Positions 9,001-47,337 of a stretch of 64,000 nucleotides of DNA are shown piece by piece. Within the stretch, counting starts at the first letter, position 1. Every line of letters starts with the position of its first letter. This stretch comes from a virus, in the IMG/VR virus record IMGVR_UViG_3300028558_000001, positions 62,001 to 126,000 of that record; one strand, written 5' to 3'. The position numbers and the translations under genes were made by a program. A model generated the notes under the pieces. The model was not told where the DNA came from. It saw only the letters and a list, made by a program, of their open reading frames with translations, and did no database searches.

Positions 9001-11969
9001 TCTAATGATGATAATGAAGTATAGTATTCTACTTGCTTTAGGCGAGCATCAAGACCACCAATATCCTTCATGGTATAACGTTTATTTGAGTTATATTGAA
9101 ATGTAACGATACCTGTTGTAGTATCATCTACAGTTAGAGTAGGATATGGAGGAACAGATACAGTTGCTAGAGTAATACCAGCAGTAATATCAGAAGGAGG
9201 AACGGGATTTTCCGCTGGAGTTCCTTCAATAATAACAACGGAACCTTTAGGAGTAAATCCTACTTTATCATAACGACCAAGATAATACTGTACCGCTGAC
9301 TGGAATGGAGAATCAATTACAGGAATATAACCATTATTAATGAATGTAAGTGTATTTGCTGGATTTAATACTGTACTTGGAGTAGCAATAACAGCAGCAA
9401 GGTTAGCAGCATATGGGATAGTATTCTGTGTAAATAATCTGAAATCTACACAGTTTCTAAGAGGATATGTGGCACCAGTTGATGGTGAGGTATATAGTGG
9501 AATATTTTTAGTATAAATGGTATTAGCAGTTACGCCAGTATCATCCACTGGATATGAATCAACTGAGAAGAACCCGATACCAGCCGATGTACTCATTGAG
9601 TATGATGTAACGCCTACTAGAAGTTTAGTTGAAGATGTGATAGTAGCACCATGATTATATAGTGATGCTAGACCATAATATGTATCACGCTGTCCATTGT
9701 CCAACTGCATTAGTGAACTTACATTTAGATTAGTATTTGAATATGAAGTACCAGCAAAAACAACAGCATTTTGTACGTCTGGAATACCTAAGCACCAAGG
9801 GCCAGTTGCTCCGTTGGGGTGAGTTGAACAATCAATTGTAACCCAAGTTAGGTTATTCAAAGTTTTTAAAGCTGGAGAAGCTGATGATCTTTGAACTGGA
9901 TAAATGATATTAGCATTGAAAGCAGAAGCAGTTGTGATGCCCAAATTGATAGTAAATGATGTTGAGCTATTAATAGTAATTGAAGGATTAGGAAAATGCT
10001 GACCAGCTACATATACCTGATTGTGAGCAGCAGTAGTCCAAGCATAAGTTGTTGGAGAAGAAACACTTAATGAAGTGCTATTAGCAATTGCGGTAATCTG
10101 ACGAATATCAGTTACAGTTGAGTTACCAATCTGAATATAGTCACCAACAATGTAAGCTGTATTGAATGCTGTGCTTAGACCACTTACAGTTGTTGTTGTG
10201 GTATTAGCTAGAGTCACAGTACCAGCGGCGGCTGAAAGGCTTGTTGTAGTAGAGTTAGTGATAATGAAATCAGATTGTACCTGTACCGCTGATAAAGTTC
10301 CAGTACCAAATGGGAGAGCATTAACGCCACCGACATAGGTTGGAATTGTTACGGTAGCTTGACCTGATGTATTAAAGCTAATTGAAGTATCTACGTTAAA
10401 GTCAAACTGACCAGATGTAGTATTTGTTGCATCTTTAAGAGTCTTAATAGCAGACTGATTAAATGGATATACTAAGCAACCTAGAGTGCTCTCATTTAGA
10501 GTACAATTTCCATTAACGTCTAGGATAACATCTGATACACCACCAGAAACGTATATAGAACGTACACTCTGGAAATTAGCACCAGATTGTAGGACAATAT
10601 TTGTTAAAAATACTAGATACTGTGCTGATGGTGTGCCGGGAACACCAGAGTAATATTCTACACCAATAACAGTTGCAGTTCCTAGTAAGGAACCAGCAGC
10701 AGAGATAGAACCAACGCCAATTCCCTTGGCTAGGTTCAATGAAATTCCATGAGAAGTAGCAGAACGTAGCTGTACAGACTGACCAATGGTTGGATTGAAT
10801 GCGCCAGCAAATTCATTTACAATTAGATAATTACCAAGAGTTGTGGTAATAGTTTGTGATGCTGCCTGTGCAACATCATTACCTTTACGGACTTTATTAA
10901 CTAACATTCCATTAGTTTGGACTTTATATCCATGAACATAAGCAGAACCCGGATCAATAGAAAGCTTAACATAGCTAGTATTTGGAGTTACGCCATCTGG
11001 TTGATATAAAGTAGTACAACGTAGATTGAATGGGCTAATAATAAAGTTGCCGCTCGTATCATCTGAAATCTGCGCCATTGCATCGCCAATAGTAGCATAA
11101 TCAGAAGCTTGACGGATAATGGCAGGATTACCACCTACGAAATCAACGATAGAGAAGAAGTTATTGGTTGAGCTTGAGCTTGTTGCTCTTTCTATCAATG
11201 TAGGAGTTAATTGAAGGCGATGAGCGCCGGGACCAGCATAGTTAGGAGAACCAGCAGAGTTATCGAGAAGTGAGCTATTTTCTTCTGGAGTTACAATAGT
11301 TTCAACTGTATTGAAACCAATTGAAATCTGATCTGGAGTATTATTATATTTAGAAACAATCATTGACTGCTTCTGAACGTCAAGGAAATATCCCTTATGG
11401 AAGATAGTACCATCTGAAACAGATAGAGAATATCCAACACCAGTTGCAGCAGAATTAGCACCGGAAATAGAGGAATTGGCAACAGTAATTGAACCAACTG
11501 CGACGTTAGCTGCATTGTAAATAGTTAGAACTTCATTCTCTTGGAATGTCTTAATGGTAGTGTCGTTTGATGAATTTAGATAATTCACATAGAGGGTATT
11601 TAGGTCAGGAGCTTGTGATACGTAACCAGCATATGTGTCAGTGATATATGCTCTCAGTCCGTTAGTAGATTGAACGTATGATCCTTTGAAATTTGAAATA
11701 GTAAAGGCAGAACTATTAGCATAAGAATCTAGAATTTTTACATATGGGAGAGAAGAATTAAAGGTAATTTTGCAGCCGTCAACGATTGAACCATCAACAA
11801 AGATATTCTTACCAAATTTTTCAATTTGGTACTGAGCCATTGTCTGTGTCTGGTTTACTTCTCTGATTTGGATCGGAGCAGTTGGTCTATGAAGGATTCT
11901 ATAAAATTGGTTATTAGAATTAAAGTCATCAAAATAAGGATATTGATTTAGATCAGTGTCAATTGACAT
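6021..11969 (-). CDS. Giant virion structural protein, DUF4815 N-terminus
   Basis: The largest gene here: 1982 residues. The N-terminus (QYPYFDDFN, then QFYRILHRPTAPIQIREV and FGKNIFVDGSIV) matches DUF4815 proteins, which are baseplate-proximal structural proteins of cyanophages and related T4-like phages. The remainder is beta-rich, low in charge and Asn/Thr/Ser rich, with repeat modules such as a GSTSGA motif shared with the 8-like, 7-like and gp53 proteins. It occupies the place of T4 genes 9-12 (short fibre and wedge-tip proteins) after the 8-like gene. I infer a peripheral baseplate or fibre-connector function. Confidence 0.75.
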   Translation of the reverse strand: MSIDTDLNQYPYFDDFNSNNQFYRILHRPTAPIQIREVNQTQTMAQYQIEKFGKNIFVDGSIVDGCKITFNSSLPYVKILDSYANSSAFTISNFKGSYVQSTNGLRAYITDTYAGYVSQAPDLNTLYVNYLNSSNDTTIKTFQENEVLTIYNAANVAVGSITVANSSISGANSAATGVGYSLSVSDGTIFHKGYFLDVQKQSMIVSKYNNTPDQISIGFNTVETIVTPEENSSLLDNSAGSPNYAGPGAHRLQLTPTLIERATSSSSTNNFFSIVDFVGGNPAIIRQASDYATIGDAMAQISDDTSGNFIISPFNLRCTTLYQPDGVTPNTSYVKLSIDPGSAYVHGYKVQTNGMLVNKVRKGNDVAQAASQTITTTLGNYLIVNEFAGAFNPTIGQSVQLRSATSHGISLNLAKGIGVGSISAAGSLLGTATVIGVEYYSGVPGTPSAQYLVFLTNIVLQSGANFQSVRSIYVSGGVSDVILDVNGNCTLNESTLGCLVYPFNQSAIKTLKDATNTTSGQFDFNVDTSISFNTSGQATVTIPTYVGGVNALPFGTGTLSAVQVQSDFIITNSTTTSLSAAAGTVTLANTTTTTVSGLSTAFNTAYIVGDYIQIGNSTVTDIRQITAIANSTSLSVSSPTTYAWTTAAHNQVYVAGQHFPNPSITINSSTSFTINLGITTASAFNANIIYPVQRSSASPALKTLNNLTWVTIDCSTHPNGATGPWCLGIPDVQNAVVFAGTSYSNTNLNVSSLMQLDNGQRDTYYGLASLYNHGATITSSTKLLVGVTSYSMSTSAGIGFFSVDSYPVDDTGVTANTIYTKNIPLYTSPSTGATYPLRNCVDFRLFTQNTIPYAANLAAVIATPSTVLNPANTLTFINNGYIPVIDSPFQSAVQYYLGRYDKVGFTPKGSVVIIEGTPAENPVPPSDITAGITLATVSVPPYPTLTVDDTTTGIVTFQYNSNKRYTMKDIGGLDARLKQVEYYTSLSSLELSAKNLMITNSSGQNRMQNGILADPFQNFTICNTSDINFNIAIDSANCEARPIFNQQLVHLQYNKINGDNCSVSSDGRIVSLTANQNSSPFIAQPFASETMNAAQDSLYVWSGTITLNPTGDYQPDVTVNPDVVVTDNSYSNFSNISNAWPTQWGNWQETSSSASTSTSQQYIKAGAVSLSNLITGTYNGSPLIVSEGNPNISQAFTAYANATVSTTTVNNNYVQYGTKYGVTAANNSYNLGTYVTNVSIQPYCQAKLIKFIATGLKPNTRLYAWMDDTNVSADCVLTDSNFNIKAGQNLVTDSTGTIYGMFYLPAATFRSGNRTFNLCDVNNMVTLSNAITTTASATYYGTNIAYAENNVTLNTITPQIVATKVSNTMTTSSTTSTIQGVSNYIVDPLAQGITITNEVFGSNDIQGVFVSSVDLFFESVDPILGVTVMIRDMQNGYPGATIQNFSQVHLTPSQINVSSDSSVATNVQFEAPVLLQTGTQYCIVIMPDGSNPNYNLWVAELGKTDTISGSPIYSLTGTGDLFTSSQNTTWTADQTKRLKFNLYTYAFTALNGTAQLVNDNTEYFTITNTNGGSFQLGEAVYPVANDVVTTGATTSGNTIITVPNSGLFTANSKIVLRNSATSQAFVANVNSILTGTTFSINTAPTFTSSTVAIGNIIGNTGLTGIVSIANSSSLYITNSTANSTIQFSNNMYLIGSTSGAYANTVTLNDIYYGELMPKLAVTAMNDTALTYNLIGTSNSATSYVTDTTSTGLSFGVSTPFIDQERVVMSRSNELIYKNGNKSLVINASFVSQTSLISPIIDTAKLGAVCLHTVINAEDANNDVYTSELNNNGQAVNRYISQTVTLTTGMDAEDLIVYLGAYWPTGTQIYVYGKFLNQYDSDPFNNKLWTPMNTTNTVRSSTVNKQDTKEYIFTLPVTAPSPSNATAYLDPANTSILTYVANTGQVYTTYSTFAVKVVLLSNAGSYLYPRLSDLRAIATPSSA

Positions 11970-43986: not shown

Positions 43987-44060
43987 GCGGGTATGGTATA
44001 TAGATTGTGCCTTGGGTTTCCAACCCAATGAAGGGGGTTTGAGTCCCTCTACCCGCTCCA
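43987..44060 (+). tRNA. tRNA-Gly (anticodon TCC)
   Basis: Cloverleaf read by eye: acceptor GCGGGTA/TACCCGC, anticodon arm TTGGG-TTTCCAA-CCCAA giving TCC, T arm GGGGG/CCCTC, encoded CCA end. The D arm is atypical (GGTA/TGCC with a nine-base loop). Confidence 0.82.
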
Positions 44061-44069
44061 ATTTCAATT

Positions 44070-44146
44070 GGTTCCGTAGCTCAGCAGGATAGAGCAACTG
44101 ACTTCTAATCAGTAGGTCGTAGGTTCGAGTCCTACCGGGATCGCCA
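44070..44146 (+). tRNA. tRNA-Arg (anticodon TCT)
   Basis: Acceptor GGTTCCG/CGGGATC (two G-U pairs), anticodon arm ACTGA-CTTCTAA-TCAGT giving TCT, T arm TAGGTTCGAGTCCTA, CCA encoded. It reads AGA/AGG codons, frequent in this AT-rich phage (the protein frames use AGA heavily). Confidence 0.92.
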
Positions 44147-44154
44147 TTTAACAT

Positions 44155-44232
44155 GGACACTTAGCTCAGTTGGTTTAGAGCAACGGACTTTTAATCCGTG
44201 GGTCGAGGGTTCGAATCCCTCAGTGTCTACCA
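44155..44232 (+). tRNA. tRNA-Lys (anticodon TTT)
   Basis: Acceptor GGACACT/AGTGTCT with a G-U first pair, anticodon arm ACGGA-CTTTTAA-TCCGT giving TTT, T arm GAGGGTTCGAATCCCTC, CCA encoded. Confidence 0.92.
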
Positions 44233-44251
44233 TTTATGAAAGGAACTCATC

Positions 44252-44419
44252 ATGTTTGGTTTGCTTTGTGAAGGATCAAATAGAGTAACCTGTGAACCTT
44301 GTACTTCTAACGATAAACTATCAATTGTCTATATGGATAGTTTTGGAGAAAGTATTGAAAAGATTTTTTGTGAACATTGTAAGGAACTAATAATTCCTAA
44401 AGAAAGTGGAGCGTGGTAA
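44252..44419 (+). CDS. Small four-cysteine protein between tRNA genes
   Basis: 55 residues from ATG 44252, preceded by AAAGGAAC. Cysteines fall in the pairs CEPC (residues 14-17) and CEHC (about 40-43), plus one at residue 6. Two CxxC knuckles about 23 residues apart suit a zinc ribbon. The stop is directly followed by the next ATG at 44420. Function unknown; many phage zinc ribbons bind host RNA polymerase or nucleic acid. Confidence 0.62.
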   Translation: MFGLLCEGSNRVTCEPCTSNDKLSIVYMDSFGESIEKIFCEHCKELIIPKESGAW

Positions 44420-44749
44420 ATGGGACATTATGATGATTGTCGGGAAGCATATGCAGAAGTGAAAGCTGACGAGGCTAGGGGAACTACTACTTCCTTTCCA
44501 AAGAAAGCACCAGTTGTACCGCCAACGACTAAGAAGCCAAAAGTTATTAAAGATAATAAGTTTATGGTGCTTAGTCATAACCCAAACTATTATAGTTTTG
44601 CTATTGTTAGTAATGAACCAGTGGAATATGAAAAGGCACTTGATGTAGCTAGAGAATCTGCATCTAAAAATATTGGTTATGAATACATTGTTGTTGAATT
44701 TAAGTCTCTTGTTAAGCCTTTTATTAAAACAGATGTAGTAGAATTTTAA
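44420..44749 (+). CDS. Hypothetical protein within the tRNA cluster
   Basis: 109 residues. A basic, Pro/Thr-rich stretch (KKAPVVPPTTKKPKVIKDN) divides a short helical start from a C-terminal beta-alpha-beta part (KFMVLSHNPNYYSFAIVSNEPVEYEKALDVA). It starts directly at the stop of the zinc-ribbon gene. No family recognised. Confidence 0.6.
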   Translation: MGHYDDCREAYAEVKADEARGTTTSFPKKAPVVPPTTKKPKVIKDNKFMVLSHNPNYYSFAIVSNEPVEYEKALDVARESASKNIGYEYIVVEFKSLVKPFIKTDVVEF

Positions 44750-44832
44750 GAACATCTTGGTAAGATAAGTAAACGGAGGATGGGAAATGGGTATGTGGAT
44801 AGCAATCCCTGATACCCCACCGGCCAAGACTA

Positions 44833-44859
44833 GGGGGAGAGTGAAGCTGGCTCTCCCCC
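44833..44859 (+). terminator. G+C-rich hairpin before tRNA-Ile
   Basis: GGGGGAGAG (44833-44841) pairs fully with CTCTCCCCC (44851-44859), nine-base loop. It lies 12 bases before the tRNA-Ile gene, without a U-run. It may separate or mark processing of the two tRNA groups; a short frame over it (from 44787) is probably not coding. Confidence 0.5.
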
Positions 44860-44870
44860 GGCGCTATTAT

Positions 44871-44946
44871 CGTCTTGTAGCTCAATTGGTTAGAGCAAGC
44901 ACCTTATAAGTGTTCGATCTGGGTTCAATTCCCGGCAGGACAACCA
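44871..44946 (+). tRNA. tRNA-Ile (anticodon TAT)
   Basis: Anticodon arm AGCAC-CTTATAA-GTGTT giving TAT; T arm CTGGGTTCAATTCCCGG; CCA encoded. Acceptor CGTCTTG/CAGGACA has an unpaired first position (C-A). TAT anticodons for isoleucine are rare in bacteria, which mostly use CAT with lysidine. Confidence 0.8.
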
Positions 44947-44955
44947 ATATTTAAC

Positions 44956-45031
44956 GGGAGTGTAGCTCAATTGGTAGAGCCGGTCGCTCATAACGGCCTC
45001 GTTGTAGGTTCAAGTCCTGCCACTCCCACCA
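44956..45031 (+). tRNA. tRNA with CAT anticodon (Met, elongator type; Ile2 possible)
   Basis: Acceptor GGGAGTG/CACTCCC, anticodon arm GGTCG-CTCATAA-CGGCC giving CAT, T arm TAGGTTCAAGTCCTG, CCA encoded. The paired first position rules out initiator tRNA. Because a TAT isoleucine tRNA is next to it, methionine is the simpler reading. Confidence 0.85.
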
Positions 45032-45055: not shown

Positions 45056-45508
45056 ATGGATATTTATATTACCGGAAAATCCCCCAAGATTACTAAACCA
45101 GAGATAAAGAAAGCAGTACGATTCTATGGATCGAAATTGCTCCGCTCTGATACTTATGATAAAATATACTTGGAAATCGCCTTGACCTCTCAGACAGATG
45201 GTTTTTATGGCTTTTGTGAGTGGATCGGAACTAATTACCGTCCCAAAGATTTTCTCATAACTCTTAACAATAGATTATGCAGAAAAACAACTCTCCAAAA
45301 TCTAGCACATGAAATGGTTCATCTTAGGCAGTATGCCACTAATCAACTATTTGATTATATGAATAATGATAATGTTAGATGGAAGAAATCATTATATGAT
45401 CAGGACGAAGTTAAATACATGGATCGTCCTTGGGAAATACAAGCTTATGAACTAGAAGATATATTATATGAACAATATGTAAAGGAATTTGATGACAACA
45501 TTACTTAA
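45056..45508 (+). CDS. SprT/IrrE-like zinc metallopeptidase-type protein
   Basis: 150 residues with HEMVHLRQ at about residues 86-93 (NLAHEMVHLRQY), a HExxH zinc site, followed by RPWEIQAYELE, whose Glu would be the third ligand. The layout is that of SprT-like or gluzincin-type small proteins in phages. AAGGAG precedes the ATG by five bases. It is upstream of genes 33, 59 and 32 and overlaps gene 33 by 17 bases. Target unknown; proteolysis of a DNA-bound host protein is a possibility by analogy with SprT. Confidence 0.72.
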   Translation: MDIYITGKSPKITKPEIKKAVRFYGSKLLRSDTYDKIYLEIALTSQTDGFYGFCEWIGTNYRPKDFLITLNNRLCRKTTLQNLAHEMVHLRQYATNQLFDYMNNDNVRWKKSLYDQDEVKYMDRPWEIQAYELEDILYEQYVKEFDDNIT

Positions 45509-45734
45509 ACAGATAGAAATTAATACTCTAGCATTTGAAGATGATATTGAACGATTGGTTTCTAAAAAGAAGATGACTTATCTGGAAGCAGTTATTCATT
45601 GGACCGAATCAAAGGGGATTGAAGTTGAATACGCTGCAACCCTCATTAAAAAGGACAATGTAATGAAGTCCAAACTTAAGGCCGAAGCGGAAGACCTTAA
45701 TTATATCCATCGCGGAGCCACCTTACCGATTTGA
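45492..45734 (+). CDS. 33: Late transcription coactivator gp33
   Basis: 80 residues from ATG 45492 (AAAGGAA upstream; UUG 45489 is an alternative). It fits the phage late-transcription-coactivator family: MTYLEAVIHWTESKGIEVEYAATLIKKD, then LKAEAEDLNYIHRGATL. In T4, gp33 bridges RNA polymerase and the sliding clamp and, with sigma gp55, allows transcription from TATAAATA promoters, which are abundant in this window. It lies in the T4 order 33-59-32. gp55 and the clamp are not in the window. Confidence 0.75.
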   Translation: MTTLLKQIEINTLAFEDDIERLVSKKKMTYLEAVIHWTESKGIEVEYAATLIKKDNVMKSKLKAEAEDLNYIHRGATLPI

Positions 45735-45740
45735 GTTTAT

Positions 45741-46313
45741 ATGTCAGCACTAACCGTATACTCCGACTACCTAGCTTTAAAAAGACATTTCTCGGATGAG
45801 AAATTTGATTACTTCAAATACGCTAGATTACCTGTCACAGTTGACAGCCTAGAGAAGCGTAAAGATAAGTACTACTTTTTAAAACTCTCTAAAGATAGAG
45901 AGTATAAACACTTCCTAATTGCTAACTTTGTAAAAGATAAAGACTTCTGGATTGGCGATATGTCAAGTCAGGATCGGATTATTACGTTCCAAGAATGGAA
46001 TAAGAAAATCCAATCTCTATCGTATACATTTAGGAATGAGTTGGGAAACCTTGACGAAGACTTCAATTCGAACTTCGTAATCAAGAATAACCAACACCCC
46101 AACGTAGTAAAGTTGTACCTAAAACGAAAGATTTCTCTTGAAACCTTAGTAATACTGGTTGACATTACTAACACGTTCAACTATAATATGCGTAAGTTGG
46201 ATGATGTGATCTGGAAGGATGTTGCTTTCAAGATCAAGAAATATTATCCATTCTTATCTCGTTATTATGCTAAAGAAAAATTAAAGGAAGAAGTTAAAAA
46301 ATATTTCGATTAA
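45741..46313 (+). CDS. 59: Helicase loader gp59
   Basis: 190 residues (T4 gp59 217). It shares the T4 pattern KRKDKYYFLKLSKDREYKHFLIANFVKDKDFWIGDM (T4: KRRDKYFFQKLSEKYK...FISNLVANQDAWIGDI). The C-terminal part is helical and basic (VAFKIKKYYPFLSRYYAKEKLKEEVKKYF). gp59 loads gp41 on gp32-coated forks. It directly follows gene 33 and precedes gene 32, as in T4. A consensus early promoter is embedded in its 3' third. Confidence 0.9.
   Translation: MSALTVYSDYLALKRHFSDEKFDYFKYARLPVTVDSLEKRKDKYYFLKLSKDREYKHFLIANFVKDKDFWIGDMSSQDRIITFQEWNKKIQSLSYTFRNELGNLDEDFNSNFVIKNNQHPNVVKLYLKRKISLETLVILVDITNTFNYNMRKLDDVIWKDVAFKIKKYYPFLSRYYAKEKLKEEVKKYFD
46159..46187 (+). promoter_or_regulatory. Consensus sigma-70 promoter inside gene 59, aimed at gene 32
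   Basis: TTGACA (46159-46164), 17 bases, TATAAT (46182-46187): exact consensus. It gives a leader of roughly 220 bases before gene 32, covering the candidate operator. Confidence 0.75.
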
Positions 46314-46338
46314 TTTTTCTTATATGGTGTGTGAAAAC

Positions 46339-46346
46339 AATAAATA
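46339..46346 (+). promoter_or_regulatory. Late-type octamer AATAAATA upstream of gene 32
   Basis: AATAAATA, one mismatch from consensus, 70 bases before the gene 32 ATG. T4 gene 32 also has early/middle and late promoters. Confidence 0.38.
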
Positions 46347-46351
46347 ATGAT

Positions 46352-46417
46352 GAAGCTTTGGCTTCTATACAAACATACAGAATATAAACACACAAACATA
46401 TAGGATATACAAACATA
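46352..46417 (+). promoter_or_regulatory. Candidate gp32 autogenous operator: hairpin plus three ACAAACATA repeats
   Basis: A hairpin GAAGC-TTTG-GCTTC (46352-46365) is followed by three exact copies of ACAAACATA at 46369-46377, 46392-46400 and 46409-46417. The last reaches into the start codon, and the ribosome site AGGAT lies between copies two and three. The leader after the hairpin has no pairing potential, as expected of a cooperative single-strand binding site. In T4, gp32 represses its own mRNA through a pseudoknot and an unstructured A/U tract. Confidence 0.55.
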
Positions 46418-47337
46418 TGGTAAATTTTGCCCAATTAAAGAAGAACCGTCAGGCTAATTTCGATAAGCTAGTACAAGAGACGGAAAAGTTAGACTCCAAA
46501 CAATTCACCAAAGATGAACGTTTCTGGCAACCAACTGTAGATAAGTCTGGTTCTGGTTATGCTGTTTTCCGCTTTCTACCAGAATATGGTGAGGAAGATA
46601 CTCCATACGTCCGCGTATTCGAGCATGGCTTTAAGGGTCCAACGGGTCAGTGGTATATTGAGAATTCACTAACAACTCTAGGTAAGCCTGATCCACTATC
46701 AGAACTAAACTCTAAGTTATGGAATTCTACTGAGGATGACAACCATCCAAACCGTAAGCAAGCCCGCGATCAAAAGCGTAAGCTAACTTTTATCTCAAAC
46801 ATTTACATGATTTCTGATCCTGCAAATCCTGAGAATAACGGTAAGGTCTTCTTATATAAGTATGGTAAGAAAATCTTTGACAAGCTAAAGGCTAAGATGC
46901 AGCCTGAGTTTGCGGATGAAGTAAAGATCAATCCTTTCGATCTTTGGGATGGCGCTACGTTCCGTCTAAAGATTTCTAAGGTAGCCGGTTATCGTAACTA
47001 CGATAAGTCAGACTTCGATGCAGCCGCACCACTATTTGCGGATGATAAGAAGTTAGAGGAAGTCTATAACAAGATGTATCCTCTAGCTCCATTCATTGAT
47101 CCTTCAAACTTCAAGGATTACAATACTCTCAAGGCACGTCTAGACGTTGTTCTAGGTGCAACTTCTGGTAAGTCATCTGTTGCTTCAACATTTGACGAAG
47201 AGGATGATGAGACAATTCCTTTCGAAACAACTTCCAGAAATCGGAAGACCGAAGCGAAGTCTCATAAGACAAGAGATATTGCTGAGACTGATATTGAAGA
47301 TGACGATGCTTTCATGGCAAGTCTTCTTGCAGATTAA
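46417..47337 (+). CDS. 32: Single-stranded DNA binding protein gp32
   Basis: 306 residues (T4 gp32 301). The basic N-terminal cooperativity arm (LKKNRQANFDKLVQETEKL), OB core (YAVFRFLPEYGEEDTPYVRVFEHGFKG), and acidic C-tail (ETDIEDDDAFMASLLAD) are all present. In T4, a zinc is held by His64 and three Cys; here no Cys exists, and residues 70-100 read GPTGQWYIENSLTTLGKPDP. The A-domain tail contacts gp59, gp33 and the polymerase. A perfect terminator palindrome follows eight bases after the stop. Confidence 0.95.
   Translation: MVNFAQLKKNRQANFDKLVQETEKLDSKQFTKDERFWQPTVDKSGSGYAVFRFLPEYGEEDTPYVRVFEHGFKGPTGQWYIENSLTTLGKPDPLSELNSKLWNSTEDDNHPNRKQARDQKRKLTFISNIYMISDPANPENNGKVFLYKYGKKIFDKLKAKMQPEFADEVKINPFDLWDGATFRLKISKVAGYRNYDKSDFDAAAPLFADDKKLEEVYNKMYPLAPFIDPSNFKDYNTLKARLDVVLGATSGKSSVASTFDEEDDETIPFETTSRNRKTEAKSHKTRDIAETDIEDDDAFMASLLAD

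Follow-up and report, generated by a model that had tools for sequence, protein, structure and literature searches.

The window analyzed here, a 64,000-nt stretch corresponding to bases 62001-126000 of a 176,660-bp IMG/VR phage contig, includes a gene 32 leader in a T4-like region (gp33, gp59, then gp32). gp33 occupies 45489-45734 and is followed by gp59, the helicase loader gene upstream of gp32 (45741..46313, + strand; phrog_269, PF08993); gp32 itself encodes a single-stranded DNA-binding protein of 306 aa (46417..47337, + strand; PF08804, phrog_224, 8gme). Five tRNA genes (Gly, Arg, Lys, Ile, and Met) lie in two clusters upstream of this gene group (43987-45031), and a 150-aa protein with an HEMVH motif, which matches PHROGs of unknown function only and is possibly a small metallopeptidase, is encoded at 45056-45508. 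The closest IMG/VR relatives of the phage are two contigs (L006 and L007) with gp32 identities of 67-70%; the nearest cultured phages, at 50-55%, are Stenotrophomonas phage DLP_6, cyanophages, and Methylophilales phage Melnitz. A blastn comparison of the gp59-gp32 junction with phage records returned zero matches, and an Rfam scan of 46200-46550 gave no match near the gathering score.

The gp32 protein scores 142.4 bits against the T4-type SSB family PF08804 (cutoff 26.8), matches phrog_224 with an E-value of 2e-106, and finds its best PDB match in T4 gp32 (8gme, E 2e-39). As a preliminary description of this DNA had stated, the protein is cysteine-less (zero Cys in 306 aa), so the Cys zinc ligands of T4 gp32 are absent; the zinc site is not defining for PF08804, and 121 of 150 gp32 proteins in the first set of relatives likewise have no Cys.

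Ahead of the leader is a late-promoter box, AATAAATA (46339..46346, + strand); it belongs to the NATAAATA class, NATAAATA being the late promoter of cyanophages (PMC2984593). Non-coding NATAAATA sites number 43 in the genome, and 28 of these 43 are located 26-90 nt ahead of an ORF start. The box is separated by a 5-nt spacer from a predicted hairpin, GAAGC-UUUG-GCUUC (46352..46365, + strand; 5-bp stem, 4-nt loop; -6.3 kcal/mol, z -3.2). T4 late promoters usually direct transcript starts at the end of the box + 6; with this geometry, the transcript start is expected at G46352, which is the first base of the hairpin. The hairpin loop (UUUG) is pairable with CAAA at 46370-46373, an arrangement that leaves zero nt to cross the second stem, and the structure is predicted as a plain hairpin only. 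In 42 of the 58 leaders that carry a late box, the best hairpin begins 0-5 nt past the box, compared with 5.7 expected from mononucleotide shuffles, so a hairpin at the expected 5' end of the late mRNA is a recurring element of the design; the combination of late box and immediate hairpin is frequent, not universal, among leaders with the AUAC ladder described below, and the hairpins differ in sequence among relatives.

A second 5' element, approximately ATnATG-n(4-7)-GTGGAYAAG, lies some 40-55 nt upstream of the gp32 ATG in 32 relatives (e.g., L111, L287, L251, and L209), at the place that the hairpin takes in other leaders. In three of the searched genomes it is found before gp32, and its few occurrences elsewhere seem to be fortuitous hits in coding sequence. 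The TGTGGAYAA within the element resembles a DnaA box (TTRTCCACA). RNAalifold returned zero RNA structure for the element, and a conserved mini-ORF was ruled out by eye: the ATG-to-GTG gap is 5 or 6 nt, and thus the frame is not kept.

Downstream of the hairpin, the 9-mer ACAAACATA is present in three exact copies (46369-46377, 46392-46400, and 46409-46417, + strand), the last of which ends on the A of the gp32 ATG (46417-46419). The preliminary description of three exact 9-mers running behind a small hairpin into the gp32 start (46369, 46392, and 46409; AUG at 46417) is therefore confirmed, as is the unpaired character it ascribed to the repeats: the tract is 57% A and alone folds at just -0.4 kcal/mol, and hence is unstructured. 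The 64-kb window holds no further copy, and the whole contig has five in total. Dinucleotide shuffling of the whole genome produced no 9-mer with three occurrences inside 60 nt (0 of 20 shuffles), and shuffling the window leader 5000 times gave 7-mer triplets 27 times and any triple 9-mer 0 times. Elsewhere in the genome, triple 9-mers are found at few sites, in most cases ordinary tandem repeats; perfect tandem arrays were observed outside the window at contig positions 25503-25588 (7.8 copies of the 11-mer TACTTCGTAGG) and 10868-10928 (the 15-mer GCAAATAATATTACT repeated about 4 times).

The 9-mer triplet exists but is not isolated, as each copy spans two neighboring units of a seven-step AYAY ladder on the + strand. 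The units are AUAC (46367..46370), AUAC (46375..46378), AUAU (46382..46385), ACAC (46390..46393), AUAU (46398..46401), AUAC (46407..46410), and AUAU (46415..46418), with steps of 8, 7, 8, 8, 9, and 8 nt; the fourth is degenerate, the weakest of the seven, and placed by spacing. Units 1-2, 4-5, and 6-7 hold the first, second, and third copies of ACAAACATA, respectively. A Shine-Dalgarno (SD) sequence, AGGA (46402..46405, + strand), lies between units 5 and 6, and unit 7 overlaps the AUG, so that the ladder, located in the gene 32 leader, overlaps the ribosome-binding site.

When repeat conservation was checked in the leaders of relatives, the exact 9-mer was not kept: L006 and L007, despite gp32 identities of 67-70%, retain one copy, and ACAAACATA was ruled out as the conserved unit. 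What is conserved at gp32 is an AUAC-type ladder, found in 146 gp32 leaders from Kyanoviridae-like phages that remained after redundancy was removed at 80% similarity. These leaders contain 475 AUACs (184 in shuffles), with at least one in 145 of the 146, and successive AUAC gaps of 8-11 nt number 231 against approximately 12 expected (35, 85, 71, and 40 at 8, 9, 10, and 11 nt, with about 3 expected for each), with further spacing peaks at 18-20 and ~27 nt; as the leaders are related by descent, these are counts of non-independent events. Relative to the start codon, which was picked by a rule favoring an SD, AUAC is phased near -5, -15, -25, and -34; its density goes up from -60, stays high until -1, and falls immediately and ~17-fold at the AUG. 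The SD of the relatives likewise lies between AUAC units, and the typical 3' end of the leader is AUACGGAGAAUACA ahead of the AUG. Judged by comparison of sequences, the conserved feature is the AUAC-type unit recurring every 9-10 nt, or about every 8 nt in the window. Pooled over pairs of related leaders, substitution per site is 0.032 in the AUAC core and 0.140 in the linkers, a figure dominated by large clusters; averaged over 14 clusters, it is 0.081 in the core vs. 0.128 in the linkers, with the core lower in 11 of 14 (Wilcoxon p 0.035). The slower change of the core is supportive, but modestly so, of the suggestion that it is under constraint.

The specificity of the ladder for gene 32 was assessed with a ladder model that was trained without the test leader, with similar leaders removed, and used to score all positions on both strands of nine phage genomes, including that of the window phage (two of the nine were covered up to 140 kb). 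The window gp32 leader ranks first in its 176,660-bp genome, with a score of 22.3 compared with 12.6 for the runner-up, and only 3 of 3000 shuffles of the leader match its score. The gp32 leader is top-ranked in eight of the nine genomes, the exception being P-RSM1, where the array is weak and the gp32 leader has rank 2. In cross-validation, 87% of leaders outscore 95% or more of the shuffles made from them.

Periodic arrays precede gp32 in other T4-like clades as well, as revealed by a motif-free measure that counts 4-mers repeated at a given lag, and ladders of this sort stand before gp32 in hundreds of relatives. Peaks appear at lags of 9-10 nt in the Kyano-like group (z about 30), 10 nt in the S-RSM4 cyanophage clade (z 16), and 9-10 nt in the Straboviridae (z 5-6), which show in addition a lag-5 peak that fits the UUAAA repeats of T4; leaders of other genes from the nine genomes, a control set that includes the gp32 leaders, have a ~1.3-fold excess at 9-10-nt lags. 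The letters of the unit vary by clade, being AAUCC or AAUCU (AAUCY) in the S-RSM4 clade and AACUGU in many Straboviridae. By a simple two-unit rule, 86 of 258 leaders in the wider set are without an array of any of the three unit types. On a quick gp32 tree (FastTree), 4 changes of unit type suffice for the array-bearing rows, and all four labels together require 26 changes vs. 55 when shuffled. Tandem AACUGU at ~10-13-nt spacing was observed before gp32 in the Straboviridae leaders L509, L568, L577, and L580 and is common in T4 relatives, and T4-type leaders keep one AACUGUUAA ahead of the UUAAA repeats. The gp32 leader of a 164-kb Straboviridae contig (L526) is without both the T4 pseudoknot sequence and AACUGU and reads ACUUUCAAAA-UCUUUUAAAA-CUUCCAAAGG, which resembles three 10-nt units.

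These comparisons bear on two further points. Such an array is not peculiar to the window phage, since AAUCY and AACUGU arrays of like period stand at the corresponding position in other T4-like clades; the difference in sequence from T4 holds. The tie to a cysteine-less gp32 proposed in the preliminary description is not supported: in the KVP40-like phage QD01, L216, and L176, AUAC arrays precede zinc-type gp32 proteins, and a link between loss of the zinc cysteines and the array was rejected on the same grounds.

The location, openness, periodicity, and gene-specificity of the array are as expected of an operator and favor autogenous, cooperative repression by gp32; on balance, the window leader probably functions as an autogenous translational operator of gene 32. 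gp32 would, we infer, be the protein that binds the array, and its binding would be repressive. In this model, a small hairpin would form the very 5' end of the late transcript, which would begin near G46352; behind it, within ~50 nt of unpaired RNA rich in A, C, and U, seven AYAY units at steps of roughly 8 nt would run through the SD to the AUG. Whenever gp32 outran the available ssDNA, protomers would assemble cooperatively along the tract and mask the ribosome-binding site; newly exposed ssDNA would draw the protein off again and let translation resume. The hairpin could act as a boundary, as a nucleation element, or in 5'-end protection. About one gp32 protomer would probably be accommodated per ladder unit. 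This equivalence may be wrong, since the sequence-independent site size of T4 gp32 on ssDNA is 7 nt (PMC7826291, PMC10484735), less than the usual 9-10-nt period; alternatively, RNA or differences between clades may lengthen the step beyond 7 nt. Also weighing against the model are the lack of conservation of the exact 9-mer, the weak array of P-RSM1, the leaders of the wider set that carry no array, and the presence of RegA in the genome. The preliminary idea of a gp32-specific operator unlike that of T4 thus gains from the comparison as regards the repeats, the 5' structure, and the unpaired tract, and is revised as regards the unit, which is AUAC-type rather than the 9-mer.

The alternative that retains the most force, although we regard it as unlikely, is that the leader is a translation enhancer, an unpaired, A-rich stretch kept free of structure for efficient output of a highly needed protein, with repeats that arose by slippage or local duplication. 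The tract is indeed unstructured and adjoins the SD, the leaders are G-poor (G 7% at -40 to -15), and linkers are more alike within one leader (similarity 0.47) than between leaders (0.36), as duplication would also produce. Openness, however, needs neither a strict 8-11-nt period, nor a fixed core with variable linkers, nor other cores in other clades, and the gp32 leader is unmatched at any other position in eight of nine genomes, though other genes also need strong expression. It is less likely still that a different RNA-binding protein, either phage RegA or a host regulator, binds the array. The window genome does encode RegA (141843-142202, - strand), and T4 RegA binds variable, unstructured, A+U-rich initiation regions (PMC3014915); T4 RegA nevertheless acts on many mRNAs, whereas the array occurs once per genome, at gp32, and the unit type tracks the gp32 tree, the one tree with which the comparison was made.

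A role of the repeats as DNA, in the form of origin iterons or transcription-factor sites, is considered very improbable. Short, phased direct repeats do adjoin a promoter and a replication gene, and GTGGAYA, in many cases within the DnaA-box-like TGTGGAYAA, is part of the nearby element seen in 32 other leaders, but that element is absent from the window leader. The period is about 9.3-9.5 nt rather than 10.5, which disfavors an explanation by helical phasing (10.5 bp), and the anchoring to the start codon, the interleaving with the SD, and the stop at the AUG make sense for RNA. That the triplet arose by chance from the A/C-rich composition of the leader, a notion to which the 57% A content and the 7-mer triplets of shuffled leaders lend themselves, is scarcely credible given the 9-mer and ladder-score shuffles, the first rank genome-wide, and the conservation of the ladder in relatives.

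Autogenous repression by gp32 can be extended, tentatively and with somewhat less than even prospects of being right, to the proposal that T4-like gene 32 leaders are sequence rulers, in which clade-specific units at a 9-10-nt period would each dock one gp32 protomer, in register as far as the AUG, and word and protein would have evolved together. If this is true, a supposedly sequence-neutral SSB reads a short RNA word. The arrays offer natural operators that are alike in spacing and differ in letters by clade, with a core that can be mutated and a spacing that can be altered, and they permit cross-tests between clades (e.g., gp32 of an AUAC phage on an AAUCY leader). A search of the open-access literature for prior reports of such arrays found T4/RB69 operator papers only.

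In T4 and RB69, gp32 represses its own mRNA through a leader that consists of a structured 5' part and an unpaired repeat tract (PMC535899, PMC3014915). Although their operator sequences are dissimilar, each of the two proteins can also repress the other's mRNA. By what means gp32 recognizes its own message among other single strands is a question still open in the T4 literature (PMC535899). A 2010 review pointed to the absence of the T4 pseudoknot and A+U-rich tract in RB49 and asked that gp32 autocontrol be examined across a range of T4-related phages (PMC3014915). The window leader resembles the T4/RB69 operator in its gene, its position, its 5' structure, and its long unpaired repeat tract extending through the ribosome-binding site. 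It differs in that the T4 operator combines a pseudoknot with UUAAA/UAAA repeats, whereas the window leader combines a predicted plain hairpin with AUAC-type units at 8-10-nt steps; it has no UUAAA/UAAA repeats, and AYAY units at about 8-nt steps stand in their place.

Three other systems invite comparison. M13 gp5 represses gene 2 mRNA (mentioned in PMC535899) and is thus, as proposed for the window gp32, a phage ssDNA-binding protein that represses an mRNA via its leader. The M13 protein differs in being unrelated to gp32 and in having its target in another gene. We know of no ~9-nt ladder in that target. RegA of T4-like phages shares with the proposed system the targeting of unstructured, A+U-rich initiation regions (PMC3014915). 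Its sites are loose and spread over many genes, in contrast to the window array, which is periodic and single in the genome. TRAP is a ring that reads NAG triplets about every 5-6 nt, and its operator is similar in presenting regularly spaced short motifs for protein assembly; it differs in the ring and in the ~5-6-nt spacing, whereas the AUAC ladder has steps of 8-11 nt and its proposed reader is a filament-forming SSB.
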